Assembly: GCA_019113145.1 (NCBI GenBank)
Contig: DXHZ01000042.1
Location: 1-32,629, forward strand
Reading direction: 5' to 3'
Length of the DNA stretch: 32,629 nucleotides
From: Candidatus Avanaerovorax faecigallinarum
GTDB lineage: Bacteria > Bacillota > Clostridia > Peptostreptococcales > Anaerovoracaceae
The notes beneath the pieces are model-generated. The model ran no database searches. It had not been told where the DNA came from and was given only the letters and a program-made list of their open reading frames with translations. The first letter of the stretch is position 1; every line of letters begins with the position of its first letter. Shown piece by piece: positions 1 through 26,428 of this stretch. Made by a program: the position numbers and the translations under genes.

Positions 1-603
1 AAACAGCACGATTACCGCAGTCAGCGGAGTTATGCCTGCTATGATGAAGCATATGGTGAAGAATATGTAGAATGCGTAAAGCAGTCTCCAGCTCTTGCCG
101 TATCCGAAAAGTACCTTGTAGTTCTTGACTACGGGTATTTTTTTACTGTCTTCCAGGAAGTGATGAAGCCTGTCTATCTGCACCGGATCTATGAAGCCTC
201 CCCTGTAGAAAGGAAGCGTGAAGAAAGGCTTTTCGGTGATGGGAAAAGACACTTCTTTATCGTAGAACTTCACTCCGAACGTATCAAAGACTGCAAGCTT
301 TACCTTTGAAAAATCCAGGGTCTTCCGGCGGAAGAGCAATCTGTTGTAGAAAGTCAGCTCGTCCGGGGTGTATATGCTGTAACAGAACCTGTGAGCAAAG
401 AAGAGACAGCCGAGGACCGCAAATATTGCAGAATATACGACGGTCGAGCGGAAGAAAAGTATGCTGTCCGCGTATTCGGGAATATCGAAGACCTTTATCT
501 CCACTATGACGAGATAGTAGAGGAGAACGTAAAGAAATATGATTCCCAGCAGAAGCTGTTTAAAGGCGCTGGAATAGTTGTATTCTATCTTTCGCATTTT
601 CAT
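1..603 (-). CDS. Unknown membrane protein, 3' end cut by window edge (cassette copy 1)
   Basis: The frame is open from an ATG at 603 to the window edge, 201 codons without a stop. A GAGGTG ribosome site at 613-618 supports a start at 603 or 609. Two hydrophobic segments lie near residues 15-35 and 50-72, then a polar domain of about 90 residues, then a third hydrophobic segment near 178-201. It is a clear paralog of the protein at 5945-6583: both have the same topology, a PF(Y/F)RGG motif in the polar domain, and an almost identical end (TVIVLF/AVIVLF). By comparison with that copy only about eight residues are missing. The polar part could be a PH-like fold as in YdbS/YcxB-type proteins, but I cannot establish the family. 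It diverges from the SpmA-like operon, so it may sense or regulate it. Confidence 0.8.
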   Translation of the reverse strand, partial: MKMRKIEYNYSSAFKQLLLGIIFLYVLLYYLVIVEIKVFDIPEYADSILFFRSTVVYSAIFAVLGCLFFAHRFCYSIYTPDELTFYNRLLFRRKTLDFSKVKLAVFDTFGVKFYDKEVSFPITEKPFFTLPFYRGGFIDPVQIDRLHHFLEDSKKIPVVKNYKVLFGYGKSWRLLYAFYIFFTICFIIAGITPLTAVIVLF

Positions 604-648
604 GTGCATGATCACCTCATATAAAATATAAAAACTACTGTAGAATAT

Positions 649-657
649 ATTATAGCA
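649..657 (-). promoter_or_regulatory. Extended -10 promoter for the minus-strand membrane gene
   Basis: Read on the minus strand this is TGCTATAAT, a perfect -10 hexamer with an upstream TG extension. No good -35 box lies 17 bases upstream. It is correctly placed about 45 bases ahead of the start at 603. Confidence 0.5.
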
Positions 658-739
658 AAAACCGTGCCTTCATATAACCGTTAATTTGGTGAAAAAAGGA
701 CGGTATTGAAGGAAAAGAACGGGCAGGCAGAAGATACAG

Positions 740-774
740 TCCTGAATTTAGGAATATGGTTCCTGAAAATAGGA
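740..774. promoter_or_regulatory. Two tandem palindromes, candidate activator binding sites
   Basis: Two 14-base sites, TCCTGAATTTAGGA (740-753) and TCCTGAAAATAGGA (761-774), share TCCTGAA..TAGGA. Each is an imperfect palindrome with TCCT/AGGA arms. Their centres are 21 bases apart, two helical turns, so they face the same side of the DNA. They lie roughly 65-100 bases upstream of the -24 element, the usual place for an enhancer of a sigma-54 activator. Binding by the activator encoded at 20037-22145 is inference. Confidence 0.55.
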
Positions 775-836
775 CACTTTTTGAAAAATCCCCGCAGGCA
801 AACCCCGAAAACTACACAATTTCATCACAATAGCCC

Positions 837-853
837 TTGGCACAGTAATTGCA
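837..853 (+). promoter_or_regulatory. Sigma-54 (-24/-12) promoter of cassette copy 1
   Basis: TTGGCACAGTAATTGCA matches the sigma-54 consensus TTGGCACRNNNNTTGCW at every defined position. The GG (839-840) and GC (851-852) are exactly 12 bases apart. Transcription would start near 864, about 100 bases before the SpmA-like gene. Confidence 0.88.
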
Positions 854-961
854 ATTCCTCTGAACTGTTCCGGCAAAACCGTGTGAAGAGCGCGGCCGGA
901 GCGAGATAAAAATATCATGCAATTATGCAAAACTTCATCAAAGAAGGAGGAAATTCAAGTT

Positions 962-1675
962 ATGATGAACTATCTCTTTGCGGCATTCATGCTCATAGGC
1001 GTGGTTGCCGGCGGCATCACCGGTACTATGGATGCCGTGCTTCAGAACATTTTTGACTTCGCCCAGTCCGGCGTTAACATCGCTCTCGGACTCATCGGTA
1101 CGATGGCGTTCTTCTGCGGACTGATGAAGCTCATGGAGGAATCCGGTCTCTGCGACAAGCTGGGCAAGGCAATCTACCCTGTTATGAGACTTCTCTTCCC
1201 TGACGTTCCGGCCGATCATCCTGCAAACTCCATAATGGCTCTTTACTTTGCGGCCAACATCCTGGGAATAGGTAACGCTGCAACACCTTTCGGACTGAAG
1301 ACCATGCAGGAACTCCAGACTCTCAACAAGACCAAGAACATCGCTACCAACGCACAGTGCATGCTGATGGCTATCTCCACAACATCCATCACGCTGCTCC
1401 CATCCACTGTAATCAGCATCCGTGCTTCCATTCAGGCTGATGGCGCAGCTGAAATCGTTGTTCCGGTTATCATTGCTACCACTATCTCTACAATAACGGG
1501 TGTAACCTTCTCCCTCCTGTTCCAGAGAACCAAGAGATGGAAGCTTGAGAACGTTATCGAAAGAGAAATCGCGGCAGGCACCCTGGAAGTAAACGAGGAC
1601 TACATAGGCGATGATCCTATAGTTCTTCCTGAAGGCTATAAGCTGAAGACCGATTTCGGAAGCAAAGAAGAGTAA
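962..1675 (+). CDS. SpmA-like membrane protein (Gate/nucleoside-recognition family), copy 1
   Basis: This 237-residue, strongly hydrophobic protein carries the SpmA signature NILGIGNAATPFGLKTMQEL near residues 99-118, followed by a TLNKTKN stretch. I place the start at the MMNYLF methionine (962) because AAGGAGG at 944-950 precedes it and copy 2 begins the same way (MMNYIW); an upstream ATG at 917 would lie before the ribosome site. In Bacillus, SpmA and SpmB act with the murein carboxypeptidase DacB in spore core dehydration; their chemistry is not settled. Here the gene is first in a sigma-54-driven operon with an SpmB-like gene 17 bases on and an S66 peptidase. A sporulation role is therefore doubtful. 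A two-subunit channel or transporter for peptides or amino acids is possible but inferred. Confidence 0.85.
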   Translation: MMNYLFAAFMLIGVVAGGITGTMDAVLQNIFDFAQSGVNIALGLIGTMAFFCGLMKLMEESGLCDKLGKAIYPVMRLLFPDVPADHPANSIMALYFAANILGIGNAATPFGLKTMQELQTLNKTKNIATNAQCMLMAISTTSITLLPSTVISIRASIQADGAAEIVVPVIIATTISTITGVTFSLLFQRTKRWKLENVIEREIAAGTLEVNEDYIGDDPIVLPEGYKLKTDFGSKEE

Positions 1676-1692
1676 AGGAGGGCTAAGATAAA

Positions 1693-2241
1693 ATGTCAGT
1701 AGCAGACGTATTTAACGTAATATCCACATGGGCCATACCTGTGGTAATATTCATTGTAGTAGGTTACGCACTGGTAAAAAGAGTACCTATCTACTCCGTA
1801 TTTACTACGGGCGCAAAAGACGGTTTTTCCACCGCAGTAATGATTATCCCTTATCTGGTTGCAATGCTCTGCGCTATCGGTATGCTGAGAGCATCCGGCG
1901 CAATGGACGCATTCTGTAACCTGATAGACCCTATAACAAGCCTTATCGGATGTCCTGGAGAGGTTCTTCCTTTCGCGGTAATGAGATCCTTCTCCGGCGG
2001 CGGAGCTGAAGGTATGATGACCGAGCTGGTTACCACTTACGGAACTCAGAGCCAGATCGGACGTATCGCATCCGTTGCAATGGGCTCCACCGAGACCACA
2101 TTCTACATCCTTGCCGTATACTTCGGATCTGTAGGCGTTACAAACTCCAGACATTCCGTAGCGGCAGGCCTTCTGGGAGACCTTACTTCCCTGATTGCAT
2201 CCTGCGTAATCGTAAATCTCCTCTGGGGATATGGATTCTAG
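1693..2241 (+). CDS. SpmB-like membrane protein (Gate family), copy 1
   Basis: This 182-residue hydrophobic protein has SpmB-type motifs: PGEVLPFAVMRSFSGGGAEG in the middle and TTFYILAVYFGSVG with TNSRH near the end. A GGAGGG ribosome site sits about 10 bases ahead of the ATG. SpmA and SpmB are homologous Gate-domain halves that occur as pairs, and the pair here is intact. The S66 peptidase starts 29 bases after the stop. Compared with copy 2 (7622-8158), it contains a 38-base stretch of identical DNA (2047-2084 against 7970-8007), pointing to duplication with little divergence or later gene conversion in this part. Confidence 0.85.
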   Translation: MSVADVFNVISTWAIPVVIFIVVGYALVKRVPIYSVFTTGAKDGFSTAVMIIPYLVAMLCAIGMLRASGAMDAFCNLIDPITSLIGCPGEVLPFAVMRSFSGGGAEGMMTELVTTYGTQSQIGRIASVAMGSTETTFYILAVYFGSVGVTNSRHSVAAGLLGDLTSLIASCVIVNLLWGYGF

Positions 2242-2270
2242 GATTTTGACTTAAAAGAAGGTGAACAGAA

Positions 2271-3191
2271 ATGAGATATCCTGAGAAATTAAATAAAGGC
2301 GATACTATCGGTATCATATGCCCGAGTTCTCCTGTAGACGAGGGCAAGACCCCTGCTCTCATAAAGAAGATGGAGGAGCTTGGATATAAGGTAAAGGCTG
2401 CTGATAATCTCGAGGAAAATTACGGCGGCTTCATGGCGGGAACCGGCAAGACCAGAGGCGAATGGGTTAACAAGATGTTCGCCGACCCTGAGGTAAAGGC
2501 TGTGTTCTGCGTAAGAGGCGGCGACGGCAGCAGCAGAATCATGGAATACCTTGATTACGACGTAATCAGAAACAACCCTAAGATTTTCGTAGGTTACAGC
2601 GATGTTACCAACATCCATCTGGGAATAAACCAGAACTGCGATCTGGTAACATTCCACGGACCTATGGTTTCATCCAACATCCTTAACGATTTTGACGATG
2701 AGACGGCCGAATCACTCTTTGCGGCAATAAACGCCGAAGGAGACTTAGAATTCAAGAACCCTAAAGGCTTTGACATAAAGGTTCTTAAGGAAGGAAAGGC
2801 CGAGGGAATCCTCACAGGTGGAAACCTTTCCCTCCTTTCAGCAAGCGTGGGAACACCTTACGATCTTGAGACGGAAGGCAGAATCCTCTTCGTCGAAGAA
2901 GTGTGCGAGCCGCTGTCAAAGATTGAAAAGTGGATGTATCACCTCAGAAACTCCGGCAAGCTGGCAAAGTGCAGCGGAATTCTGCTGGGACAGTTTACAG
3001 AGGTTGAAAACGAAAAGATGGCGGAGTATGATGTATACGAAGATATGAAGGATATCCTGGAGGGTATCGACATACCTGTAATGTATAATGTCCAGTCAGG
3101 CCACAGTAAACCTATGATGACTCTTCCTTTAGGCGCAGTATGCACTATGGATACCGCTACCGGAAAAATCACCTTCAAGGTTGAAAGATAG
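2271..3191 (+). CDS. S66 family peptidase (LD-carboxypeptidase / MccF-like), copy 1
   Basis: A 306-residue cytoplasmic serine peptidase with the complete S66 triad visible: Ser110 in VGYSD, a glutamate at 209-210 in LFVEE, and His278 in QSGHSKP. The N-terminal GIICPSSP and the VRGGDGSSR and LTGGNLSLL stretches are also typical. Members either cut the LD bond of murein tetrapeptides (LdcA, in cell-wall recycling) or hydrolyse acyl-sulfamoyl or isopeptide links (MccF). No signal peptide is present, so it acts on imported peptides. It is the last gene of a three-gene operon, followed by a terminator 14 bases after the stop. Coupling to SpmAB-like membrane proteins suggests the pair and the peptidase share a substrate. 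Sequence alone does not separate the LdcA and MccF activities. Confidence 0.88.
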   Translation: MRYPEKLNKGDTIGIICPSSPVDEGKTPALIKKMEELGYKVKAADNLEENYGGFMAGTGKTRGEWVNKMFADPEVKAVFCVRGGDGSSRIMEYLDYDVIRNNPKIFVGYSDVTNIHLGINQNCDLVTFHGPMVSSNILNDFDDETAESLFAAINAEGDLEFKNPKGFDIKVLKEGKAEGILTGGNLSLLSASVGTPYDLETEGRILFVEEVCEPLSKIEKWMYHLRNSGKLAKCSGILLGQFTEVENEKMAEYDVYEDMKDILEGIDIPVMYNVQSGHSKPMMTLPLGAVCTMDTATGKITFKVER

Positions 3192-3204
3192 CTTTATTCA
3201 TGTA

Positions 3205-3233
3205 GGGGCAGTATGCGTACTGCCCCGTATTTT
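3205..3233 (+). terminator. Rho-independent terminator after S66 gene copy 1
   Basis: The 9-bp perfect stem GGGGCAGTA/TACTGCCCC (3205-3213, 3218-3226) with a TGCG tetraloop is followed by GTATTTT. It closes the first cassette operon. Confidence 0.85.
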
Positions 3234-3248
3234 AAACAGGAGACAAGT

Positions 3249-3650
3249 ATGGCAGCGGGATATGCGAGAAAAGAGAATGCCGTATACGACATATACGGGA
3301 GATTTGCCGACAGAGATATAGGCGAGTGCCCCTTCTGCAAAAATCCGGAGCCGAAGTGGCTTTACCGGGAGGAATGGAAGCTTCTCGGCAATAACAGCGT
3401 GTATTTCAAATGTCCGTGCTGCGAATCGGAGCTGATGGTTCCCAAGGACGATATTACGGGTCTGTCTTTTTCAAAAGCCAGCTCCAGCGGTAAGAAAAAG
3501 GCCAATGCGGGAAAAGTGATGAACGAGCCGTATGTAACGGTTATCAAGATTGGATTTGAATATAAGAACGCGAAGAATATGCTTCTCGTAGGCGAGGAAA
3601 TGACTCTCGCCCAGCTGAAAGAGAGAGCGGAAAAAGCGCGCAGTATATAG
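3249..3650 (+). CDS. Small zinc-ribbon protein of unknown function
   Basis: A 133-residue protein with CPFC near residue 26 and CPCC near residue 56, a four-cysteine arrangement typical of a structural zinc ribbon. The rest is basic and polar with no membrane segment. I start at 3249 (MAAGYARK) because AGGAG lies seven bases upstream; an earlier in-frame ATG at 3213 falls inside the terminator hairpin. The gene is 25 bases before dapF and probably shares its transcript. I do not recognise the family and cannot assign a function; a DNA-, RNA- or protein-binding role would be typical of such ribbons. Confidence 0.75.
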   Translation: MAAGYARKENAVYDIYGRFADRDIGECPFCKNPEPKWLYREEWKLLGNNSVYFKCPCCESELMVPKDDITGLSFSKASSSGKKKANAGKVMNEPYVTVIKIGFEYKNAKNMLLVGEEMTLAQLKERAEKARSI

Positions 3651-3675
3651 ATTACAGAACATAATAAAGAAGTAT

Positions 3676-4515
3676 ATGAAATTCTGGAAAATGAACGGAG
3701 CCGGAAACGACTTCATTATAATTAACAACATAATAGAGAAAATTCCGGTTGAAAGGCTTCCGGACGTGGCGAGAAAGCTTTGTCACAGAAGATTTTCCAT
3801 AGGAGCCGACGGCCTCATGGCGGTGGAAAAGCCGGAGGGAGACGGAGACTTCAGGATGCTCTTCTTCAATTCGGACGGTTCCATGGGGGAGATGTGCGGA
3901 AACGGCGCCCGCTGCATATGCAGGTACGGGTACGAGAACAGCCTTGCCGGAGAGACTCAGAAGGTGGAGACCACGGCGGGTATGGTTACCGGCAGCAGAC
4001 TGTCGGAGAGGGAATACAGGATAAGGCTTAACGACCCGGCGGTTTTGCGCCTGGACGAGGAGGTTTTCGCAGGCGGAACCGGGTACGTATGCTCCTATGT
4101 GGAGCTGGGCGATCCCGGAATACCTCACTGCGTCATAGAATGGAAAAACCTTAGGAATTGCCCAAAGGAAAAGCTCTACGACACGGCAAGAGCTCTCAGA
4201 AGTTACGGCGGCTATCCGAATGGAGCCAATGTGAACTTTTACGATATGGAATCGGACGGAACAATCTTTGAGAGAACTTTCGAGCGGGGCGTGGAGGATT
4301 TCACCTGCGCCTGCGGAACGGGTACGGGAGCAACGGCAGTCGTTCTCGCTCTTAAGGGCTTCGTACCGGGAAGAAATGTTGCCGTGGATATGGAGGGCGG
4401 ACGGCTTTTCATAGACGTCACTGCAGAAGGCGGAAAGGTACGGGATATTTTTCTGACGGGACCTACTAATATTGTCGCAAAAGGTGAAGTGACCGACGAG
4501 GACTTCATCCTGTAA
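3676..4515 (+). CDS. dapF: Diaminopimelate epimerase
   Basis: The enzyme interconverts LL- and meso-diaminopimelate, the last step before lysine and the source of the cross-linking residue in murein. At 279 residues it is the usual length. Both catalytic cysteines are present: Cys74 in EMCGNGARC and Cys213 in the CACGTGTGA motif. The N-terminal MNGAGNDF is also diagnostic. The ribosome site is weak (AAAGAAG), so translation may depend on the upstream zinc-ribbon gene. lysA follows 28 bases later. The dapF-lysA pair sits between the two SpmAB/S66 cassettes, so murein precursor synthesis and possible murein peptide breakdown are neighbours. Confidence 0.95.
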   Translation: MKFWKMNGAGNDFIIINNIIEKIPVERLPDVARKLCHRRFSIGADGLMAVEKPEGDGDFRMLFFNSDGSMGEMCGNGARCICRYGYENSLAGETQKVETTAGMVTGSRLSEREYRIRLNDPAVLRLDEEVFAGGTGYVCSYVELGDPGIPHCVIEWKNLRNCPKEKLYDTARALRSYGGYPNGANVNFYDMESDGTIFERTFERGVEDFTCACGTGTGATAVVLALKGFVPGRNVAVDMEGGRLFIDVTAEGGKVRDIFLTGPTNIVAKGEVTDEDFIL

Positions 4516-4543
4516 ATATAACTGATTTGAAAGGAAGAAAAAA

Positions 4544-5842
4544 ATGATCTGTGAAAACATTTCAGTATCATCTGAAGGACATCTGCTGTTTGCGGGACAG
4601 GATACGGTGGAGCTTGCGAAGAAATACGGAACGCCTCTCTATCTCATGGACGAGGACAGAATCCGCGCCAACTGCAGGCTTTACAAGAAAGCGATGAAGG
4701 AAAGCTTCGGTGATGATGCTGCTCCGCTTTACGCTTCAAAGGCCAACTGCTTCAAGAGAATCTACGAGATAATGAAGGAAGAGGACATGGGAATAGACGT
4801 AGTGTCCTCGGGAGAGATATATACTGCGGTAAAGGCCGGATACGATCTGTCAAAGGCGTTTTTCCATTCAAACAATAAGACCGACGAGGACATAGCCTAC
4901 GCCATGGATAACGGCATCGGATATTTTGTCGCAGATAACATCGAAGAAGTGAAGGCCGTAGACAAGGAAGCCGAAAAGAGAGGCTTCAGACAGAAGATTA
5001 TTTTAAGGTTAACTCCGGGAATCGACCCTCACACCTACGAGGCCATTTCCACCGGACAGGTCGACTCCAAGTTCGGAAGCGCCATAGAGACCGGTCAGGC
5101 GGAGGAGATAACCGTTGCTGCCATGGGATATCCTAACGTGGATCTGAGAGGATTCCACTGCCACGTGGGCTCTCAGGTGTTCGCAGAGGACGTGTTCGAG
5201 AGAGCCGCTGTCGTAATGCTGGAGTTCGTAGCCGAAATGAAGGAAAAGCACGGATTTGTTACGAAAGTTCTCGACCTCGGCGGAGGTTACGGCGTTCGTT
5301 ACGTGGAATCGGATCCGCACCTTGACATTGCCGAAAAGATTTCCCAGGTGGCAAAGGTCGTAAAGGACACCTGCGCAAAGCTGGGACTGGATATGCCTGA
5401 AATCCACATGGAACCGGGACGCTCCATAGTGGCAGATGCCGGTATGGTGCTTTACACCGTAGGAACGGTAAAGAAGATAGCGGGATACAAGAACTACGTG
5501 TCCATCGACGGAGGAATGACTGACAGCCCGAGATATGCACTCTACAAGGCCGCCTACACCTGCCTCACCGCGAACAAGATGAACGAAAAGGCTGACTTTA
5601 AGGCGTCTCTGGTAGGAAGATGCTGTGAATCGGGAGATATAATCCAGGAGGACGTAATGTTCCCTGAATCCATCACCAGATACGATACGGTGGCCGTATG
5701 TACCGCCGGGGCATACCACTACTCCATGGCGTCCAACTATAACCGTCTGCCAAAGCCTGCAACGGTTATGCTCAGGGGCGGCGAAAGCTACATCGCCGTT
5801 AAGAGAGAGACTTTCGAGGACGTGGCGAGAAACGACGTATAA
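4544..5842 (+). CDS. lysA: Diaminopimelate decarboxylase
   Basis: A PLP enzyme that converts meso-diaminopimelate to L-lysine and CO2. The 432-residue protein has the fold III decarboxylase signs: the PLP lysine (K66) in YASKANC, HCHVGSQV, the glycine-rich LGGGYGVRY, EPGRSIVADAG, the substrate motif GRCCESGD, and AGAYHYSMASNYN near the C-terminus. The ribosome site AAAGGAAG lies just upstream of the ATG at 4544. It is the last gene of the zinc-ribbon-dapF-lysA group and is followed by a bidirectional terminator. Confidence 0.95.
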   Translation: MICENISVSSEGHLLFAGQDTVELAKKYGTPLYLMDEDRIRANCRLYKKAMKESFGDDAAPLYASKANCFKRIYEIMKEEDMGIDVVSSGEIYTAVKAGYDLSKAFFHSNNKTDEDIAYAMDNGIGYFVADNIEEVKAVDKEAEKRGFRQKIILRLTPGIDPHTYEAISTGQVDSKFGSAIETGQAEEITVAAMGYPNVDLRGFHCHVGSQVFAEDVFERAAVVMLEFVAEMKEKHGFVTKVLDLGGGYGVRYVESDPHLDIAEKISQVAKVVKDTCAKLGLDMPEIHMEPGRSIVADAGMVLYTVGTVKKIAGYKNYVSIDGGMTDSPRYALYKAAYTCLTANKMNEKADFKASLVGRCCESGDIIQEDVMFPESITRYDTVAVCTAGAYHYSMASNYNRLPKPATVMLRGGESYIAVKRETFEDVARNDV

Positions 5843-5927: not shown

Positions 5928-5944
5928 CATACTGCTCAATGCTG

Positions 5945-6583
5945 CTATATGAGGTTATTGCTGCTTGCGGTAAACAGAACGATTACCGTATAAAAATAAT
6001 TTGCAGAGGCGAGGAGGGTGCATATAGCCAGAAGTGCGTAGATTATGGAAACCCATTTCCATTTTTTCGTGTATCCCGGGAGCGTTTTGAAAGTTTTGTT
6101 TACCCGGATGTTTTCATTGGCTATGAGCATCCTGAAGAACCTGTCCGCGTCGAAAGCGTTTACAATACCGCCCCTGAAAAAAGGAATTGTAAGTGCATCG
6201 GGCTCGTTTTCGTCGGAACTCCTCTTAAGATGAATGCCTCTCCAGTCGAGAAGCGCATATCTTATCTCGTCTACCGCTACTGTGCGGGATTTCCGCAGCA
6301 GGTGGTTGGTATACGTGATGGATTTGTCGTCGTAAGTGGTGATGAAGCATTTATAGCAGAAGAACAGAATAATAACGGCAAGGAATATCAGGGCGTAGTA
6401 CACGAGAGTGGGTATGATGTACACCGTGTATCCCTCGATGCCGTAGAACTTTATCTGCAGGGTAATGATGAATCTGAGAAGAAACAGAATCATTACCGTT
6501 ATAAAGAACATAACCTTGGCCTTATTGGTGGATACGTATCTAATTCTGTCTTCAGTATTTATTCTTTCGGTATTATCGGTCAT
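5945..6583 (-). CDS. Unknown membrane protein (cassette copy 2)
   Basis: A 212-residue protein starting at 6583, fixed by an ideal AGGAGG at about 6595-6600; the frame stays open upstream but has no better start. Hydrophobic segments lie near residues 24-44, 53-77 and 178-205. The polar region between the second and third contains IPFFRGGIV, which matches PFYRGGF in the paralog at 1-603. Both genes lie divergent to the same kind of SpmA/SpmB/S66 operon, so the association is conserved across the duplication. I do not recognise the family; a PH-like domain between membrane segments is a guess. A role in sensing or controlling the neighbouring operon, or as an accessory subunit, is inference. 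Confidence 0.8.
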   Translation of the reverse strand: MTDNTERINTEDRIRYVSTNKAKVMFFITVMILFLLRFIITLQIKFYGIEGYTVYIIPTLVYYALIFLAVIILFFCYKCFITTYDDKSITYTNHLLRKSRTVAVDEIRYALLDWRGIHLKRSSDENEPDALTIPFFRGGIVNAFDADRFFRMLIANENIRVNKTFKTLPGYTKKWKWVSIIYALLAICTLLASANYFYTVIVLFTASSNNLI

Positions 6584-6602
6584 AAGTCTTAAATCCTCCT
6601 CA

Positions 6603-6615
6603 GTGTATGATACAC
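6603..6615. promoter_or_regulatory. Perfect 13-base palindrome, operator candidate
   Basis: GTGTAT-G-ATACAC lies in the leader of the minus-strand membrane gene, only a few bases upstream of its ribosome site. A repressor bound here could block that gene. No matching site was seen in cassette copy 1. Confidence 0.35.
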
Positions 6616-6799
6616 AATTACCCGTAGGTTGGCAACATAACAGTATAATATGAAATTTCCGCAAACACCCGATAAAACCCCATTTAATCATATTATCGTG
6701 CAATTTGAAGAAGCGACATGCAGGGCATGATCGGGATGAAGGACTGTGTGACACGGCGGGAGGCATGGAAAAAACAATATTATTGAAAGAAGCTGAGTA

Positions 6800-6816
6800 G
6801 TGGCACGTGAATTGCA
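6800..6816 (+). promoter_or_regulatory. Sigma-54 (-24/-12) promoter of cassette copy 2
   Basis: GTGGCACGTGAATTGCA matches the sigma-54 consensus except for the first T. The GG (6802-6803) and GC (6814-6815) are exactly 12 bases apart. Transcription would start near 6827, about 75 bases before the SpmA-like gene. Confidence 0.88.
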
Positions 6817-7608: not shown

Positions 7609-7621
7609 GGAGGTATAGAAA

Positions 7622-8158: not shown

Positions 8159-8176
8159 TACCGGAGGTGAATGTTC

Positions 8177-15051: not shown

Positions 15052-15070
15052 GACAGGAAGGATAATATAA

Positions 15071-17632: not shown

Positions 17633-17641
17633 GCTTACGGT

Positions 17642-18754: not shown

Positions 18755-18764
18755 GTTTCCTCCT

Positions 18765-19982
18765 CTACTTTTCAAGCAGCTTAAGTGCGGATGCTGTCTG
18801 TATTATTACGCCGTTTAACATGGCTTCCTCTGCGGGAGCGAAGTGTTCGTTATGAAGAGAGTATACGGGATCCCCTTCCTTCGTCACTCCCAGATTGAAA
18901 TAGGTACCCTTTACGCTCTGGGTGAAAAAGGCAAAGTCGTCAGCGCCGAGGCTCGGTTCCGGCATGTGTCTTACCATATCGTGACCGAGATATTCGTCGG
19001 TGGTCTCTTCTACGGCGCGGGTAACGTCGTCGTCGTTTATGAGGGCAGGGTAATAGTCGTCCGCCCACTGGACTTCTGCCGAAGCTCCGTAAGCGGATGC
19101 GGTGTTTTCCGCAATCTGTACGAACAGGCTCTTTGCTTTTGCCATGGTGTCCATGTCAAGGGCCCTTATGGTGCCGCGCATTACCACTTCTCCGGCGATT
19201 ATGTTTCCGGCCGTTCCGCCGTTTATGGAACCGATGGTCACCACTACCGGAGTAGTAGGAGCCATGAAACGGCTGGATATTGACTGTACGGCTGTAATTA
19301 CCTGAGCGGAAACCACGATTGTATCTATACCCGCATCAGGATGGGCGCCGTGGCAGCTTTTCCCTCTCACTGTAAGTGAGAAGCTTCCGGTGGCCGCATT
19401 CATTGGACCGTATTTAAGTACTATGGTTCCTGCGGGGTACTCCGGATCCACGTGAAGAGCCGTTACGGCGCTTACATCGGGATTTTTCAGGAATCCAGCT
19501 TCTATCATAGGAGAGGCTCCGCCTACCGTTTCCTCTGCCGGCTGGAAGAAGAGCTTTACGGCTCCGTTCAGCCTTCCTTCGTCGTCAAGTTTTTTCAGAA
19601 GTATTCCCGTCGAGAGAAGTATTGCCGTGTGCATATCGTGGCCGCAGGCGTGCATCACGCCGGGATTCTCCGATGCATACTCAAGGCCGGTTGCTTCGCA
19701 GACGGGAAGAGCGTCCATGTCTGCTCTGACGGCGATACATCTGCGGCCGTCCTTTACGTCTCCCACCTGTGCGACTATGCCGAATCCGGCCACGCCGGAT
19801 GTATAGCTTATTCCATGTTCGTCGAGAACAGAGCGCACGAACCGGGATGTATTCTCTTCATGCTCTGAAAGCTCGGGATGGGAATGAAGATGGCGTCTGA
19901 TTCTCACCGTCTCCGGATAGAGCTCCTTTGCCGCTTCGATGAGCTCGGCAGGGGTAACTGATGTCGTTGTGTTTGGTTCCAT
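18765..19982 (-). CDS. M20 family amidohydrolase (M20D type)
   Basis: A 405-residue metallohydrolase. It shows HPELSEHEENTS, the metal-site stretch VMHACGHDMHTA with a nearby VRADMDALPV, the catalytic glutamates in LFFQPAEETVGGA, and DDFAFF near the end. Relatives remove acyl groups from amino acids or dipeptides (hippurate hydrolase, N-acetyl-diaminopimelate deacetylase, indole-acetyl-amino-acid hydrolase); the substrate is not decidable here. AGGAGG six bases ahead fixes the start. It lies 54 bases after the sigma-54 activator and 10 bases before the racemase, all on the minus strand, so the three may be one transcript. Confidence 0.88.
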   Translation of the reverse strand: MEPNTTTSVTPAELIEAAKELYPETVRIRRHLHSHPELSEHEENTSRFVRSVLDEHGISYTSGVAGFGIVAQVGDVKDGRRCIAVRADMDALPVCEATGLEYASENPGVMHACGHDMHTAILLSTGILLKKLDDEGRLNGAVKLFFQPAEETVGGASPMIEAGFLKNPDVSAVTALHVDPEYPAGTIVLKYGPMNAATGSFSLTVRGKSCHGAHPDAGIDTIVVSAQVITAVQSISSRFMAPTTPVVVTIGSINGGTAGNIIAGEVVMRGTIRALDMDTMAKAKSLFVQIAENTASAYGASAEVQWADDYYPALINDDDVTRAVEETTDEYLGHDMVRHMPEPSLGADDFAFFTQSVKGTYFNLGVTKEGDPVYSLHNEHFAPAEEAMLNGVIIQTASALKLLEK

Positions 19983-20036: not shown

Positions 20037-22145
20037 CTATCTTTTCAATCTGTCTATACCCATTTCCGTTATTCTTGTGCCGAAGCGGCCCCTGCCAATC
20101 TGTATGAGACCGTCTGATGAAAGAGCGGAAAGTATCTCACGAAGTTTTCCGTCGCTTATATTCACGCCGGATGATTTAAGTATCTGCACCAGTACGGTAC
20201 GTCCGACGCCGTGAGCGGGAGCGGAGTTGTCATAGATGAGGGACAGAACCTTCTGCTTCAGTTCGTCCTCGGTAAAGGACAGCCGCCTGATCGTATATCT
20301 CTTCGGTTCCGGAGGATTGAAAATACCGCTGCGGACCGGTACTTCACCAGTGTATGACGGGATTTCCGCATGGGACGCCGCCTGCCCGGAATATGAATCC
20401 TGCTTCTGCGTTTCAGTCTGCTCCTGCTCGGAACGTGCGTTTTCAATGTTGACCAGATATTCAGGAAGCTCGGAGAGCGATTTGTAGTATACTGCTGTAT
20501 TTCTCAGTTCTCTCACGTTGCCCGGCCAGTCGTATTTCATCATAAGCGTCTTTTCGTGAGGACTTACGTTTTTGTAGTCCGGACCCAGAAAACTTTTCAG
20601 CAGCGCCGGAATATCTTCCTTCCTCTCACGAAGAGGAGGTACGGAGATTGGCAGTACGTTGAGCCTGAAGAAAAGGTCGCTTCTGAAACTCCCCTTTGCG
20701 ATTTCGGCTTCGAGATTTTTATTGGTGGCGGCAATGATTCTCACATCTATATTGATGACTTTGTCGCTTCCTATTCTCATAACCTGCATTTCCTGGATGG
20801 TTCTGAGCAGACGCGACTGCAGCTTCGGGGATATGTCGCCTATTTCATCGAGGAATATGGTGCCGCGATGGGCCTGTTCGAACAGACCGGCCTTGCCCTT
20901 GCTCCTGGCTCCGGTGAAGGAACCCGCTTCATATCCGAACAGTTCCGATTCCAGAAGGGTTTCGGGAAGAGCGGCGCAGTTGACGGCGACGAAGGGGAAA
21001 GTGGATCTGTCCGAATAGTTGTGTATGGACTGGGCTATCATTTCCTTTCCGGTGCCGCTTTCACCGCGTATCAGAACCGTAAGATCGGTGCCTGCTATAC
21101 GCTTGGCTGTGCTGATGACTTTCTCCATGCATGAGGCTCTGTATATGATATCGCTGAACTGATAGTTTGCTACGTACCCCTTTTCTTTAAGTGAGTGGCT
21201 GAGAGGGGCTGTATCTCTCTCGTCCTGAAGAGTCATGTAATAGCCCGCTTTTTCATCCATCAGCGTGATGGTGTACTTGTTCAGAATGTAATTGTTAAGA
21301 TTTATGGTGACCTTGGCTCCTGAGACGTCCGGGGAACTTATGATATCGGGCGGGAGATTATCGCTCAGATTAAGCTCCGTTTTGTCGGAGACGCCGAAGA
21401 TTGAGCACGCTTTGGCGTTGGCGTATACAGGCTCAAAGAGTGCATCCACCAGGATGGTGCCTATGGCGCTTCCGTCAACTATTCTTTTTATCATTTCGCT
21501 CTTGAGATAATCGTAAATGAAGTTGGAGTAGAAGCTGGTAGCCGATTCCACAACGGTGTGGAGATAGCGGAATATGTTCCTGTTGATTCTCTCCGCTTCA
21601 AGGTCCAGAAGCTGCTTGAGCTTAACGACAGTGTCGAAGCTTACAACTCTGTAGCCTATGTCTATGACTTCGCTGATGTGCTCCGGAACAAGCTCCGGCT
21701 CGTTAGGTGTAACGGCGATGGTTATGTCGTCGTAAATGCCGGTGTGGTCAAGGCTGTTGTCGAAAGGTACGAAGTTGATATGGCTGACGCCCATCTCGTA
21801 AAAAGAGTATGCGGTGGAAAGAGCGGTATCATAGCTGTCGTTGACCAGGAGAACCTTTGTCCCTGACGGAATTTCCGAAATCGATTTCAGAGCCCTGACG
21901 TTAGGGCTTCTCTCCATCTTTACTACCATGGAAAAGTTGTCTACGCGCTCTTTAAGCTGTTCGTAAAGGTCATCGCCGCTTACAAGATATGCGTCGGCGT
22001 GGAGTACGGAGTTTTCCGGATACTCCTCCAGATGTACGTTGTAAAATCTCACAAAGTCCTCAAATATGCCCTCGAGATTGGACTTTACAAAGTTCATGGC
22101 GTTCATATTGGAGGAAGTCTTATATACAATGGCTACTGTCTTCAT
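20037..22145 (-). CDS. Sigma-54-dependent transcriptional activator with winged-helix-like C-terminus
   Basis: A 702-residue enhancer-binding protein. The start at 22145 (MKTVAIVYKT) has AAGGAG seven bases upstream; a longer frame has no such site. Residues 1-195 resemble the ligand-sensing N-terminal domain of PrpR-type regulators, and 222-310 look like a PAS domain. The AAA+ domain has Walker A GESGTGKE (361-368), the sigma-54 contact loop GSFTGA (408-413), Walker B TIFLDEIGD (429-437) and WPGNVREL (540-547). After a Gln/Ser-rich linker (570-610), residues 620-702 look like a winged helix instead of the usual Fis-type helix-turn-helix. It is divergent to an operon with a sigma-54 promoter, and two more such promoters lie in the window, so it is the likely activator of all three. 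Confidence 0.93.
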   Translation of the reverse strand: MKTVAIVYKTSSNMNAMNFVKSNLEGIFEDFVRFYNVHLEEYPENSVLHADAYLVSGDDLYEQLKERVDNFSMVVKMERSPNVRALKSISEIPSGTKVLLVNDSYDTALSTAYSFYEMGVSHINFVPFDNSLDHTGIYDDITIAVTPNEPELVPEHISEVIDIGYRVVSFDTVVKLKQLLDLEAERINRNIFRYLHTVVESATSFYSNFIYDYLKSEMIKRIVDGSAIGTILVDALFEPVYANAKACSIFGVSDKTELNLSDNLPPDIISSPDVSGAKVTINLNNYILNKYTITLMDEKAGYYMTLQDERDTAPLSHSLKEKGYVANYQFSDIIYRASCMEKVISTAKRIAGTDLTVLIRGESGTGKEMIAQSIHNYSDRSTFPFVAVNCAALPETLLESELFGYEAGSFTGARSKGKAGLFEQAHRGTIFLDEIGDISPKLQSRLLRTIQEMQVMRIGSDKVINIDVRIIAATNKNLEAEIAKGSFRSDLFFRLNVLPISVPPLRERKEDIPALLKSFLGPDYKNVSPHEKTLMMKYDWPGNVRELRNTAVYYKSLSELPEYLVNIENARSEQEQTETQKQDSYSGQAASHAEIPSYTGEVPVRSGIFNPPEPKRYTIRRLSFTEDELKQKVLSLIYDNSAPAHGVGRTVLVQILKSSGVNISDGKLREILSALSSDGLIQIGRGRFGTRITEMGIDRLKR

Positions 22146-22197
22146 GTCTGCACTCCTTACAAATCTCAAAATCTGCCTGTTACCCGAATTCCCGTCC

Positions 22198-22226
22198 ATT
22201 ATAACCTCTTTCAGCGGAGCTTTCAA
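22198..22226 (-). promoter_or_regulatory. Sigma-70 type promoter of the sigma-54 activator gene
   Basis: On the minus strand, TTGAAA (22226-22221) and perfect TATAAT (22203-22198) are 17 bases apart. The start codon lies about 50 bases downstream, so the activator itself is made by the housekeeping polymerase. Confidence 0.8.
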
Positions 22227-22246
22227 GACTATAATAAGATTTAATG

Positions 22247-22259
22247 GGATTTAAAATCC
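22247..22259. promoter_or_regulatory. Palindrome between divergent promoters, activator site candidate
   Basis: GGATTTAAAATCC is a perfect 13-base palindrome about 60-75 bases upstream of the -24 box at 22320 and just upstream of the activator's own promoter. It is placed to serve as an enhancer site and for autoregulation. Its sequence is not the same as the palindromes at 740-774. Confidence 0.4.
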
Positions 22260-22319: not shown

Positions 22320-22336
22320 TTGGCATATTTTTTGCT
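22320..22336 (+). promoter_or_regulatory. Sigma-54 (-24/-12) promoter of the M55/P1 peptidase operon
   Basis: TTGGCATATTTTTTGCT matches the sigma-54 consensus apart from T for C at one position; the GG (22322-22323) and GC (22334-22335) are exactly 12 bases apart. Transcription would begin near 22347, just ahead of the M55 ribosome site. Confidence 0.86.
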
Positions 22337-22374: not shown

Positions 22375-23172
22375 ATGAGAGTTTTTATTAGTGCGGACAT
22401 AGAAGGCTGTACCGGAGTTACTACCTGGGACGAGACATTTTACGGAAAACCCGGATATGCCGAAGCGGCTGAGCAGATGAATAAAGAGGTGGCTGCGGCT
22501 GCCAGAGGCGCCCTTGCCGCAGGCGCAGACGAAGTTGTCGTAAAAGACGGCCATGAAGACGCCATGAACATACAGCCGTCTGCAATGCCGAGAGGTGTAA
22601 AGGTTCTGCGCGGATGGACTCAGGATATCGACGCCATGATGGCCGGAGTAGGCGGAGGTTTTGACTGCGCGTTCTACATCGGATATCATGCCGAAGCAGG
22701 AAGCAGCAGCAGTCCTTTGTCCCATACGACGGAGTTTCCTATTCTCCAGAAGGCTCTTCTCAATGGAAAGCCTATGGCGGAGTTCGACGTGAATGCCCTT
22801 GCCGCGGCAAGACACGGCGTTCCTTCCGCGCTTATAACGGGAGATAAGGGAATCTGTGACAAGGCGTCCGAATCGTGTCCGTGGATAAAGACCGTAGCCG
22901 TTAAGGAAGGCGTCAGCGGAGGAACTCTCAACATGCATCCTGAAGAAGCCTGTGAGCTGATAGAGGAGGCTGCAAAAGCCGCTGTTTCCGAAAAGAACTT
23001 CAGATGCGCTGAAATACCTGAGCACTTTGAGATGGAGCTCACATATAAATATCACACGAGAGCAAAGAAAGCTTCCACCTATCCCGGCGCAGTGCTGAAG
23101 GACGACTGCACTGTAACATACGAGACCGACGACGTGGCGGATCTGCTGGAAGCATATTCATTTATGGTATAG
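22375..23172 (+). CDS. M55 family D-aminopeptidase (DppA-like)
   Basis: A 265-residue zinc D-aminopeptidase. The known DppA metal and active-site pattern is visible: D8 and E10 in SADIEG, D58 and H60 in VKDGH, H105 in GYHAEAG, and a glutamate in the MAEFDVNALAA stretch. DppA of Bacillus cuts D-Ala-D-Ala and similar D-peptides. No signal peptide is present, as in DppA. GGGAGG six bases before the ATG sets the start. It is the first gene after the sigma-54 promoter and is followed 19 bases later by a P1 peptidase. This is the clearest sign that the regulon deals with D-amino-acid peptides. Confidence 0.93.
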   Translation: MRVFISADIEGCTGVTTWDETFYGKPGYAEAAEQMNKEVAAAARGALAAGADEVVVKDGHEDAMNIQPSAMPRGVKVLRGWTQDIDAMMAGVGGGFDCAFYIGYHAEAGSSSSPLSHTTEFPILQKALLNGKPMAEFDVNALAAARHGVPSALITGDKGICDKASESCPWIKTVAVKEGVSGGTLNMHPEEACELIEEAAKAAVSEKNFRCAEIPEHFEMELTYKYHTRAKKASTYPGAVLKDDCTVTYETDDVADLLEAYSFMV

Positions 23173-23191
23173 ATACGGAGGAACTTTTAAG

Positions 23192-24235
23192 ATGGGATTA
23201 CCTAAAGACAGCGGCCTGGAGCTGCATTCCAAATGGCAGAGAGGAAAGCTGAACCTTATCACCGATGTTCCGGGAGTGAAGGTCGCTAACGTGACAATTC
23301 AGGACGGAGCGGAGATAAATACCGGCGTTACGGCTATTCTGCCTCATACGGGAGATATTTTTCACGACAAGGTCATGGCAGGCGTATCCGTTATAAACGG
23401 ATTCGGCAAGAGTCTCGGACTGGTTCAGGTTGAAGAGCTGGGAACCATAGAGACGCCGATTATAATGACCAATACTTTAAGTGTGGGAACGGCAGCTGAG
23501 GCGCTGACCGAATACATGCTGGAGAGAAACGATGATATCGGAGTAAAGACCGGAACTGTAAACTGCCTCGTAACCGAGTGCAACGACGGCAGACTTAACG
23601 ATATAAGAGGACTTCACGTAAAGAAGGAACACGTTCGTGAAGCTTTGTCAAAGGCTGAAGCAGACGGCGATACTTTCGAAGAGGGTGCTGTCGGAGGAGG
23701 AACCGGAATGTGCTGCCTGGGCCTTAAGGGCGGCATAGGCTCTTCATCCAGGATAGTGAAGGTTGACGACAGAGACTATACCGTGGGCGCCATAGTGATG
23801 TCCAACTTCGGCGGATCCGGAAACCTCGTTATAGGCGGAGACCACATCGGAAAGCGCATCAGGGAGAGAATGGCTGCAGAGGATAAGAAGGATCTGGGGT
23901 CGATTATAATGATCATCGCAACGGATATTCCTCTTTCCGACCGTCAGCTGAAGAGAGTGGCAAAACGTTCATCCATAGCTCTGGGAAGGTGCGGATCGTA
24001 TTTAGGCAATGGAAGCGGAGACATAGCCGTAGCCTTCAGCACCGGAAACAGAGTGCCTCACTACAGCGATAAGTCCCTCATCGATATTAAGATGTACGAT
24101 GACGAGAAGATAGACAGAGTGTTCGAAGCGGCTGTTGAGGCCGTAGAGGAATCGGTCATCAGCTCCATGTACCATGCAGAAACGACAAAGGGCGTTCGCG
24201 GAAATATCTATTACGGACTCAGGGAGTTTTTATAG
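23192..24235 (+). CDS. P1 family (DmpA-type) self-processing aminopeptidase
   Basis: A 347-residue protein of the N-terminal-nucleophile P1 family. Characteristic stretches are ITDVPGVKVANVT near the start, EGAVGGGTGMCCLGLKGGIG (164-183), VGAIVMSNFG with the probable nucleophile Ser204, and GNGSGDIAVAFSTGNR (272-287). Family members cleave themselves before the serine and act as D- or L-aminopeptidases or beta-peptidyl aminopeptidases; DmpA itself is an L-aminopeptidase/D-esterase/amidase. The gene shares the M55 transcript. GGAGG before the ATG supports the start. The exact specificity cannot be read from the sequence. Confidence 0.9.
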   Translation: MGLPKDSGLELHSKWQRGKLNLITDVPGVKVANVTIQDGAEINTGVTAILPHTGDIFHDKVMAGVSVINGFGKSLGLVQVEELGTIETPIIMTNTLSVGTAAEALTEYMLERNDDIGVKTGTVNCLVTECNDGRLNDIRGLHVKKEHVREALSKAEADGDTFEEGAVGGGTGMCCLGLKGGIGSSSRIVKVDDRDYTVGAIVMSNFGGSGNLVIGGDHIGKRIRERMAAEDKKDLGSIIMIIATDIPLSDRQLKRVAKRSSIALGRCGSYLGNGSGDIAVAFSTGNRVPHYSDKSLIDIKMYDDEKIDRVFEAAVEAVEESVISSMYHAETTKGVRGNIYYGLREFL

Positions 24236-24248
24236 AGCAAATTCCTAT

Positions 24249-24335
24249 GATCCGGCATTCCCCCTCCCTAACTGACGCCGGATCTTAAAAATAAACGGGC
24301 GCCGCCGAAGCATCGGATTCCGCTACGGCGGCGTC
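24249..24335. repeat. Two adjacent hairpins between the P1 peptidase and racemase genes
   Basis: First arms GATCCGGC (24249-24256) and GCCGGATC (24277-24284); second arms GGCGCCGCCG (24298-24307) and CGGCGGCGTC (24326-24335), with one G-U pair. Neither is followed by a true T run, so they may reduce read-through or stabilise RNA ends rather than act as plain terminators. Confidence 0.45.
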
Positions 24336-24367
24336 TTCACATTCTGACGAAAAGGAGATATAATACT

Positions 24368-25072
24368 ATGTTAGGAGTAATCGGAGGAATGGGGCCGCTG
24401 GCTTCATCGCTTTTTTACGATATGATAATCGACAAGACCGACGCAGGCTGCGATCAGGAAAATCTGAATATGATAATATACAGCGATTCCGGCATGCCTG
24501 ACAGAACCGGCGCAATCCTTTCGGGAGACGAGGAGAAGGTTGCCGAAGTGCGCGACCGAATCCTTAAAGACGCGAAGGTTCTGGAAAACGCAGGGTGCAG
24601 CGCCATTGCCGTAACCTGCAACACCGCTCACTATTTTGTCAACATGGTGAGAGGCGAAGTGGGAATTCCTTTTATCCACATGATAGAAGAGACGGCAAAG
24701 GAACTTGCCAAAACCTGCAAGGGAAAGCCGGTCGCCATTCTCGCCACCGACGGAACCGTTAAGACGAGGCTCTATCAGAACGAGTTCGAAAAGCACGGAA
24801 TCGTGCCTTACACCCCGACGGAAGAGGGCCAGAAGAAGGTAATGAGCACCATTTACGACCTTATCAAGCAGAACAAGCCGGTAGATGCGGATCTCTGGGC
24901 GGAAATAGAAAAAGAAATTAAGGATGCCGGATGTGAAGCCGCAATCCTTGCATGCACCGAGCTTTCCGTGGTGAAGAAGGAGCTTGACCTTCCGGAATAC
25001 TACCGCGACCCTATGGAGATCATGGCCGACAGGTGCATAGAATATTACAGAGCGATAGGAGAAATTAAATAA
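24368..25072 (+). CDS. Aspartate/glutamate racemase family protein
   Basis: A 234-residue cofactor-independent racemase. Both catalytic cysteines are present: C84 in VTCNTAHYF and C196 in ILACTELS; the N-terminus IGGMGPLAS is typical of the aspartate racemase branch. It would interconvert L- and D-aspartate (or glutamate). AAGGAG lies shortly before the ATG. The stop overlaps the start of dtd by one base (TAATG), so racemase and D-aminoacyl-tRNA deacylase are translationally coupled. That coupling suggests the cell protects protein synthesis when D-amino acids rise. Confidence 0.92.
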
Positions 25073-25518
25073 TGAGATTTGTTATTCAGAGAGTTCTCGA
25101 AAGCAGCGTCAGCGTAGACGGAAAGGTTGTCGGACAGATCGGCAAAGGTTTCATGGTCTTAATAGGCGTCGGATCGGGCGATACCCGAGAAATCGCAGAC
25201 AAGATGATAAAGAAACTCATAGGTATGCGCATTTTTGAAGACGAAAACGGCAAAACCAACCTGAATTTGGAGTCCGTGGGAGGAAGCCTTCTTCTCATAT
25301 CCCAGTTCACCCTTTACGCCGACTGCAAAAGGGGCAACCGTCCGGGATTCACGGACGCCGGCGCGCCCGACCTTGCGGAAGAGCTCTATGAGTACATCAT
25401 TTCAGAATGCAGAAAATCCGTTCCCGTAGTGGAGCGGGGAGTTTTCGGCGCCGACATGAAAGTGAGCCTTGTAAACGACGGGCCGTTTACGGTTATTCTG
25501 GATTCGGAAAAACTTTAG
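25072..25518 (+). CDS. dtd: D-aminoacyl-tRNA deacylase
   Basis: A 148-residue enzyme that removes D-amino acids wrongly loaded on tRNA. It starts MRFVIQRV, contains SQFTLYAD, the RGNRPGF segment and the cross-subunit Gly-Pro motif in NDGPFTV. Length and motifs are standard. In many Firmicutes dtd sits next to relA; here it overlaps an Asp/Glu racemase gene instead and lies in a region full of D-amino-acid enzymes. Confidence 0.95.
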
Positions 25519-25529
25519 ATTTAAACTGA

Positions 25530-25560
25530 GGGTGCGGGCGTATCTGTCCGCACCCGATTT
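25530..25560 (+). terminator. Probable terminator after dtd
   Basis: Arms GGGTGCGG (25530-25537) and CCGCACCC (25548-25555) around a 10-base loop, followed by GATTTAT. The T run is short, so some read-through into the deacetylase gene is likely. Confidence 0.6.
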
Positions 25561-25579
25561 ATATACGGAGGAACAGAGA

Positions 25580-26428
25580 ATGCAGTACACGGGAAAAGTA
25601 AAACTGAGCGAGGGAAAAAATCTTGCGGTAAATCTGGGATTCGATTTTGACGCGGCTTCCGTGTGGATGGGAGCCTACGGAAAAACCTCGCCCGTCTATA
25701 TGTCCAGAGGAGAGTTCGGCGCGGAGGTAGCCGTTCCGAGGATTCTCGATCTTCTGGACGACTACGGAATAAAATCCACATTCTGCGTGCCGGGACATAC
25801 GGCAGATACCCATCCCGACACGGTAAAGGAAATAATAAAGAGAGGACACGAGATTTGCCATCACAGCTACGACCACCTGGACCCTTCCGAACAGAACTAT
25901 GACGATGAGATCCGCGAGATAGAAAAAGGCTTTGAAGCTCTCGATAGAGTGGGCGCAAAGCCCGTCGGATACCGTTCGCCGGGCTGGGATTTCAGCGAAA
26001 ACACTTTGTCCATTCTGGAAAAGTACGGCTTTAAATACGACTCCAGCCTGATGGGAAACGACTTTCATCCTTATATGATACGTCCGTGCACGGTGAATAT
26101 GGAGTGCGGCAACTCCTTCGGCGAGCCGTCAAAGATAATGGAGCTTCCGGTTTCGTGGTACCTTGACGACTTCCCTCATTCTGAGTTCGTCATGACGCGG
26201 ACGGGCATGAAGGCGCCGAGCCAGTACTACGAGATATGGAAAAACCACTTTGATTACGGAACCTCCCATATCAAAGGCGGCATGATGGCTCTCACTATGC
26301 ACCCACAGGTGACGGGCCGGGCCCACAACATCATAGTCCTGGAGAGTTTCATCGCCTACATGGCCGAAAACGGAGCGGAGTTCCTGACACTGGGTCAGAT
26401 AGCGGACAGGACAGAAATGGACAGGTAG
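25580..26428 (+). CDS. CE4 family polysaccharide deacetylase-like protein
   Basis: A 282-residue NodB-homology protein. Visible motifs are NLGFDFDAAS (catalytic and metal aspartates), STFCVPGHTADTHPD, the zinc pair H95/H99 in HHSYDHLDP, YRSPGWDFS and MHPQVTGR. There is no signal peptide or membrane anchor, so it is cytoplasmic, unlike most murein deacetylases. The pattern fits the subgroup of Helicobacter PgdA and allantoinase-like PuuE, so the substrate may be a small amide or imide rather than a polymer. I start at 25580 (MQYTGKVK) where GGAGG is eight bases upstream; the upstream extension runs through the hairpin. Confidence 0.85.
   Translation: MQYTGKVKLSEGKNLAVNLGFDFDAASVWMGAYGKTSPVYMSRGEFGAEVAVPRILDLLDDYGIKSTFCVPGHTADTHPDTVKEIIKRGHEICHHSYDHLDPSEQNYDDEIREIEKGFEALDRVGAKPVGYRSPGWDFSENTLSILEKYGFKYDSSLMGNDFHPYMIRPCTVNMECGNSFGEPSKIMELPVSWYLDDFPHSEFVMTRTGMKAPSQYYEIWKNHFDYGTSHIKGGMMALTMHPQVTGRAHNIIVLESFIAYMAENGAEFLTLGQIADRTEMDR

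Follow-up and report, generated by a model that had tools for sequence, protein, structure and literature searches.

Among the described systems, the closest to the locus reported here are the ykfABCD-dpp genes of Bacillus subtilis, where an S66 peptidase (YkfA) and an M55 peptidase (DppA) take part in the nutrient use of peptides (PMC2954226), and the ddpXABCDF genes of Escherichia coli, which allow the use of D-Ala-D-Ala under the control of RpoN (PMC8743547). In aerobic marine Pseudomonadota LysA makes diaminopimelate (DAP) usable as a nutrient by way of lysine (PMC9602339), and the sigma-54 regulons of amino-acid fermentation in Clostridiales (OrdR, PrdR, LeuR and others) have an activator beside the catabolic operon, a binding motif and a sigma-54 promoter (PMC6615313). 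Here we describe a stretch of DNA from Candidatus Avanaerovorax faecigallinarum (contig DXHZ01000042.1 of assembly GCA_019113145.1, 32,629 nucleotides; the whole stretch is called the window below), which contains two operons with a pair of Gate-domain proteins and an S66 peptidase, and a third operon with the peptidases M55 and P1. We think it probable, judging from sequence, that these operons form two sigma-54 regulons, one under the activator EBP617 and one under EBP729, which import and dismantle cell-wall peptides and direct DAP through lysine into fermentation; we are more confident of the regulons than of the substrate.

The locus resembles ykfABCD-dpp in its S66 and M55 enzymes and, in relatives, in Opp/Dpp transporters and in some cases the epimerase family, but it differs in the predicted control by sigma-54 with dedicated activators, in the Gate pair, in DapF-LysA and in the link to lysine fermentation, and the window lacks YkfC and YkfB. 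It would have RpoN control in common with ddpXABCDF, and a D-Ala-D-Ala dipeptidase of the VanX/DdpX type lies near EBP617 in 6 of 52 neighbourhoods of relatives; in E. coli, however, control is through the global nitrogen regulator NtrC and import through an ABC system, whereas here the activators appear to be specific and there is no DdpX in the window. Although the layout is that of the Clostridiales regulons, none of their 39 groups names lysA, dapF, S66 or M55 as a target (PMC6615313). The use of DAP by the marine bacteria differs in being aerobic and in concerning free DAP, and neither a sigma-54 switch nor an operon for peptide degradation has been described for it (PMC9602339). SpmA/SpmB and YjiG/YjiH are likewise pairs of Gate proteins, and a wall peptidase gene is sometimes found close to them, but the pairs described here are linked to S66 and to sigma-54 promoters. 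We found no sigma-54 regulon for DAP or muropeptides of clostridia in the open-access literature.

Sigma-54 promoters and the probable activator of operon 1

The genome (1.82 Mb in 99 contigs, 99.3% complete; the window is contig C56) has one copy of rpoN and about 16 full sigma-54 activators. The exact sigma-54 pattern TGGCACNNNNNTTGCW occurs ten times in the 1.82 Mb, compared with three times for the reversed control, and two of the ten sites, at 838 and 6801, are upstream of the two Gate-Gate-S66 operons. The first (TGGCACAGTAATTGCA, 838..853, plus strand) precedes operon 1 (GateA1-GateB1-S66-g5-DapF-LysA, 962-5842) and the second (TGGCACGTGAATTGCA, 6801..6816, plus strand) operon 2 (GateA2-GateB2-S66, 6901-9094); both are conserved in relatives. 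The M55-P1 operon (22375-24235) has a site with one mismatch (TGGCATATTTTTTGCT, 22321..22336, plus strand) 38 bp before M55. When two mismatches were allowed, the scan of the window gave 10 matches against 12.0 expected by chance, i.e. no excess, therefore only exact or conserved sites were used in this work. An earlier note on this DNA had proposed three sigma-54 operons and a sigma-54 activator among them. The three operons were recovered, two with exact sites and one with a single mismatch, and the activator (EBP729) is indeed encoded in the window, but operon 1 appears to be linked to a second activator outside it.

This second activator, EBP617, has 617 residues with PAS, AAA and Fis-type helix-turn-helix domains and a GAFTGA loop. 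It is encoded directly beyond the divergent membrane gene with which the window begins, both in G002, the closest relative, and in L111, a locus of an uncultured Firmicutes bin with a 97% identical GateB. Contig C44 has EBP617 at its end, its final 131 bases are the same as the first 131 bases of C56, and this overlap places EBP617 approximately 0.9-2.7 kb to the left of window base 1, beside operon 1.

Two palindromes that may be the enhancer boxes of EBP617 precede the sigma-54 site of operon 1: candidate box 1 (TCCTGAATTTAGGA, 740..753, plus strand) starts 98 bp before the site, and candidate box 2 (TCCTGAAAATAGGA, 761..774, plus strand) is 21 bp from box 1 and 77 bp before the site. Tandem boxes with diverged letters recur before Gate, DapF, LysA, Opp or S66 operons of relatives, including G087, G090, G011, G047, L112 and Tissierella pigra. 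With scoring confined to the TCC/GGA core, 24 of 83 sigma-54 sites had a tandem score of at least 11 of 12, as compared with 1 of 915 random positions in the same loci, which were not matched for promoter composition. The spacing was exactly 21 bp at 27 of the 33 sigma-54 sites scoring at least 10. Genome-wide the box pattern has three other matches, all single, there is no second tandem, and no EBP617 boxes were found before operon 2 or M55. EBP729 was rejected as the activator of operon 1: there was no common motif (the best candidate had 15 of 24 letters, and 36 of 40 shuffles were as good), and the EBP617 boxes stand there instead. From its position and the candidate boxes, EBP617 is likely the activator of operon 1.

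The surroundings of EBP617 in other genomes were studied in a sample of 80 genomes drawn from the family and in 297 genomes of the order. A homologue was found in 92 of the 297 genomes and in 12 of the 80; the close GateB type occurs in eight of the 80, all of them among those 12 (p = 1.7e-8, hypergeometric, kinship ignored). We read 52 neighbourhoods, 48 from EBP617 searches and four (L101, L105, L109, L148) reached through GateB; neighbouring genes were labelled by similarity to a reference set built in this analysis, and the counts ignore phylogeny. At least one gene of the enzyme set (LysA, DapF, S66, Gate, M20, Alr, VanX, M55, M19, beta-lactamase-like, epimerase) lies beside EBP617 in 47 of the 52 neighbourhoods and at least two in 35, whereas the corresponding numbers for other activators, taken as a comparison, were 4 and 0 of 11. 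Besides the six dipeptidases mentioned above, the counts were LysA 31, S66 24, DapF, GateB and M20 16 each, Alr 12, M19 9, Opp 9-11 and SDF symporter 8. A class A beta-lactamase-like serine hydrolase (PF13354) is found in nine (L258, L263, L266, L284 and others), and these proteins may hydrolyse wall peptides rather than confer resistance. In Geosporobacter subterraneus EBP617, a sigma-54 site, LysA, GateB and S66 follow one another, and in Romboutsia weinsteinii M55, M20, Alr, GateA, GateB and S66 are grouped, with no exact sigma-54 site. Of 27 Gate pairs that have an S66 gene next to them, 20 had a sigma-54 site, but of 27 pairs without S66 only 1 did, and this single pair has LysA and EBP617 beside it. 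The comparison of gene neighbourhoods, which the earlier note had suggested, thus came out in favour of a conserved system, since the same enzyme set recurs round EBP617 across many families and the sigma-54 sites of the Gate-S66 operons are kept.

Gate pairs and the fate of diaminopimelate

In profile searches the Gate-domain proteins of the window belong to the 'nucleoside recognition' family and are encoded as two SpmA/SpmB-like pairs: GateA1 (962..1675, plus strand; the open reading frame starts at 917 but the ribosome-binding site favours 962) with GateB1 (1693..2241, plus strand), and GateA2 (6901..7608, plus strand) with GateB2 (7622..8158, plus strand). Structure models of GateA1 and GateB1 had mean pLDDT values of 85 and 88, and the best solved Foldseek matches of both were CNT transporters, with probabilities up to 0.99-1.0, but with E values above 0.1 and TM scores of about 0.4-0.55. 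It is plausible from these models that the pair is a two-part importer, each protein corresponding to a CNT-like half. In relatives that lack the Gate pair or encode it in another place, Opp, SDF, NhaC or DcuC transporters lie beside EBP617; this speaks for a transport role of the pair. The possibility that association with S66 is a general trait of SpmB-like proteins was discarded, because the two genes are adjacent in just 6 of 77 cases. The link between Gate and S66 is not confined to Clostridia: in Neomarinimicrobiota and other marine bacteria (L117, L138, L143, L170) the Gate pair follows immediately after an S66-like gene, with no sigma-54 site present.

Operon 1 continues with S66-1 (2271..3191, plus strand), a member of the LD-carboxypeptidase family in which the Ser/Glu/His motif regions are present and which likely has LD-carboxypeptidase activity, and with g5 (3213..3650, plus strand), a small zinc-ribbon-like protein (CPFC...CPCC) that matches no family but is conserved in position. 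Its last two genes encode DapF, a predicted diaminopimelate epimerase with the catalytic Cys motifs (3676..4515, plus strand), and LysA, a predicted meso-diaminopimelate decarboxylase (4544..5842, plus strand). Both exceed the cut-offs of their NCBIfam equivalogs, LysA with 409 bits against a cut-off of 298 (TIGR01048). Among PDB entries LysA scored 300 bits with true DAP decarboxylases and 111 bits with D-ornithine/D-lysine decarboxylases, which disfavours the latter assignment, and LysA is probably a true DAP decarboxylase.

To our knowledge DapB is common to all known bacterial DAP routes. No match to DapB (PF05173) was found in this 99.3%-complete genome, thus LysA and DapF cannot complete a known biosynthetic pathway here. 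DapB was also without a match in 7 of the 12 EBP617 genomes, compared with 24 of the 80 overall (p = 0.03, kinship ignored). Lysine 5,6-aminomutase is present in all 12 EBP617 genomes and in 27 of the 68 others (39 of 80 overall; p = 6e-5, kinship ignored). The genome has a complete-looking lysine-fermentation cluster, KamE-KamD-KamC-KamB-KamA-Kdd-Kdd, assigned by equivalogs (L033 1-12089, contig C63), with a sigma-54 site at L033 9857 (minus strand) and an activator of its own.

EBP729 and the remainder of the window

EBP729 (20037..22226, minus strand) is a sigma-54 activator with a GSFTGA loop, a long N-terminal sensor and a non-Fis C-terminus. It adjoins M55, and M20 (18765..19982, minus strand; amidohydrolase/carboxypeptidase subfamily) and the alanine racemase Alr (17642..18775, minus strand; equivalog) are encoded behind it, Alr being the last gene of EBP729-M20-Alr. 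The promoters of operon 2 and M55 have a common block of 16 of 18 letters, which none of 40 shuffles equalled. The shared motif that we regard as the candidate EBP729 site is GATTAAATGGGGTT before operon 2 (6676..6689, minus strand) and GATTTAATGGGATT before M55 (22238..22251, plus strand). The genomes G000, G001 and G002 each have exactly two copies of the pattern GATTWAATRGGDTT, one upstream of operon 2 and the other upstream of M55 or P1; the pattern was not found in the sister genome G003, whose best EBP729 match is 47% identical. The EBP729 element rests on a smaller data set than the EBP617 boxes. The genes presumably controlled by it are, apart from the second Gate pair, S66-2 (8171..9094, plus strand; LD-carboxypeptidase family with its motifs), the M55 D-aminopeptidase of the DppA family (22375..23172, plus strand) and the P1/S58 peptidase of the DmpA family (23192..24235, plus strand). 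The window operons would accordingly fall into two regulons rather than the single combined regulon of the earlier note, which the different enhancer motifs and likely activators of operon 1 and of operon 2/M55 do not support.

The C-terminus of EBP729 reads like a winged-helix domain and not like the usual Fis-type domain, and its similarity to its paralogues mostly ends near residue 600. Elsewhere in the genome, locus L029 (contig C28, 3-8939) has an EBP729-type activator, 44% identical, between two further M55 genes; the locus also encodes an old-yellow-enzyme reductase and, behind a sigma-54 site, a transporter of the DcuC type. G003 has a pair of this kind next to an Opp operon (L218). 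The module of D-aminopeptidase and activator is thus present in duplicate. Other activators of the same genome (L035, L036, L037, L032; contigs C73, C64, C30, C47), mostly with sigma-54 sites, have as partners an oligopeptide transporter, Na/alanine symporters, amidohydrolases, an amino-acid permease and a class A beta-lactamase-like protein, and much of the nutrient uptake of this genome seems to be under sigma-54 control.

Profile searches confirmed the gene families named in the earlier note: two S66, two Gate pairs, DapF, LysA, two NSS, M19, Alr and M20, and also the sigma-54 activator, M55, S58/P1, an Asp/Glu-type racemase (AspRace) and Dtd. The NSS pair (13651-16477) and M19, which had been included in the sigma-54 system, do not evidently belong to it, because their promoters are of sigma-70 type (TTGACA-17-TATAAT at 13575 and TTTACA-16-TATAAT at 16550, respectively); for the NSS pair, M19, YitT and YbaK no sigma-54 link was seen in this window. 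The gap between P1 and AspRace is 19 bp in G001 and 133 bp, with a possible hairpin, in the window, and AspRace-Dtd may be read through from M55-P1.

The gene that opens the window, memb_g1 (1..615, minus strand), is truncated by the contig end and encodes a small membrane protein without a Pfam or NCBIfam match. It is divergent from the Gate operon also in G002, G087, G090, G047, G014, L111 and L112. A weak sigma-54-like site with one mismatch lies ahead of it (AGGCACGGTTTTTGCT, 654..669, minus strand), and exact-type sites are upstream of memb_g1 in L102 and L104. A paralogue with 27% identity is divergent from operon 2 (about 5945..6607, minus strand). The earlier note had overlooked these two divergent membrane-protein genes. 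Like memb_g1, a 160-residue HFS protein (L039 9822-10304) represents a membrane family without a Pfam match that recurs beside EBP617/Gate operons. Two open reading frames were rejected as spurious, one on the plus strand at 5900-6592 opposite a membrane-protein gene, and one on the minus strand at 3652-4560 opposite dapF. A bacterial small signal recognition particle RNA (Rfam RF00169) lies at 9195-9294, upstream of dnaX.

Proposed function and its alternatives

In the mechanism that we infer, EBP617 would bind the two palindromes 21 bp apart and switch on operon 1, the Gate pair would import murein peptides or DAP, S66 would remove the terminal D-Ala, and other peptidases would release DAP. 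DapF would then convert LL- to meso-DAP and LysA meso-DAP to L-lysine, which would enter the kam pathway and yield acetate, butyrate and ammonia. EBP729 would switch on the second Gate-Gate-S66 operon and the D-peptidases M55 and P1. Salvage of D-peptides or cell wall for fermentation under sigma-54, as the earlier note had it, is supported in outline, but the emphasis shifts from D-amino acids generally to murein peptides and DAP, because DapB is missing and few genes accompany EBP617 as constantly as LysA and DapF do. A bolder version, in which the Gate pair is a CNT-like importer of murein peptides or DAP, EBP617 responds to DAP or muropeptides, and the whole is a widespread clostridial system for fermenting the walls of others, is possible, and we put it forward tentatively.

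Several observations speak against this interpretation. The best PDB sequence matches of S66-1 are to MccF first and only then to LdcA-type enzymes, and neither a gamma-D-Glu-DAP endopeptidase nor an L-Ala-D/L-Glu epimerase is among the window genes (the rest of the genome was not searched); an enzyme like the latter (PF02746/PF13378) lies near EBP617 in just 3 of the 52 neighbourhoods. Five EBP617 homologues have no neighbours from the enzyme set; four of them share similar surroundings, and the five may be paralogues that serve a different function. Of the 12 EBP617 genomes 5 do have DapB, hence LysA and DapF could also be biosynthetic there. The organism's own MurE (L225, contig C96) has EENNRDSDP where diaminopimelate-adding enzymes usually have DNPR, which bears on the residue in its own stem peptide. 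Finally, the EBP729 pattern was written from four of its six reported sites, so that what is informative about it is the lack of further sites.

Recycling of the cell's own wall, or lysine supply, would regain peptides and DAP from turnover as material for wall or protein, not as a source of energy. S66 is a recycling enzyme in E. coli. It is one in B. subtilis as well (PMC2954226), and in the absence of DapB the DAP or lysine must be external or recycled. However, decarboxylation destroys DAP for the wall, the full kam cluster is flanked by sigma-54 elements and its marker gene occurs in all 12 EBP617 genomes, and the presence of a dedicated activator, of redundant peptidases and of symporters points to catabolism, all of which makes own-wall recycling unlikely in our opinion. 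The sigma-54 sites, found at S66-linked Gate pairs but hardly at others, also bear on the idea that the role of the pairs lies in envelope physiology, as with SpmA/SpmB, S66 acting in wall remodelling and the linkage to lysA being incidental. The B. subtilis operon dacB-spmAB does couple a Gate pair to a wall peptidase, and Gate pairs are relatives of SpmAB found in many phyla, mostly without S66. Since catabolic enzymes recur around the Gate pairs and the predicted Gate fold is transporter-like, we regard such an envelope role as the least probable of the explanations considered.

General catabolism of D-amino acids and D-peptides by one regulon under EBP729, including NSS, M19, dtd and the racemases, would account for the clustering of the genes within 26 kb, with synteny retained in G002, for the EBP729 element common to operon 2 and M55-P1, and for the short distance between P1 and AspRace in G001. 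This synteny is lost outside the genus, whereas the association of LysA, S66, Gate and EBP617 persists; together with the other enhancer and activator of operon 1 and the sigma-70-type promoters of NSS and M19, this leaves a single D-catabolic regulon improbable, more so than own-wall recycling.

Two regulons for import and catabolism of cell-wall peptides thus remain our preferred explanation. What is new here is that known murein-peptide catabolism appears to be placed under dedicated sigma-54 activators; the locus is real and conserved, and it adds a target class not found in two published sigma-54 surveys (PMC6615313, PMC12316311). In the genomes lacking DapB the DAP processed by LysA must be external or salvaged, which makes them a clean test. 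The murein-peptide permease was called 'unidentified' in the YkfC structure paper (PMC2954226). By offering a candidate importer, a regulator with a defined candidate DNA site and a possible route from DAP to lysine fermentation, this work addresses two open questions, the murein-peptide permease of Gram-positive cells and the way in which anaerobes may use dead bacterial biomass.

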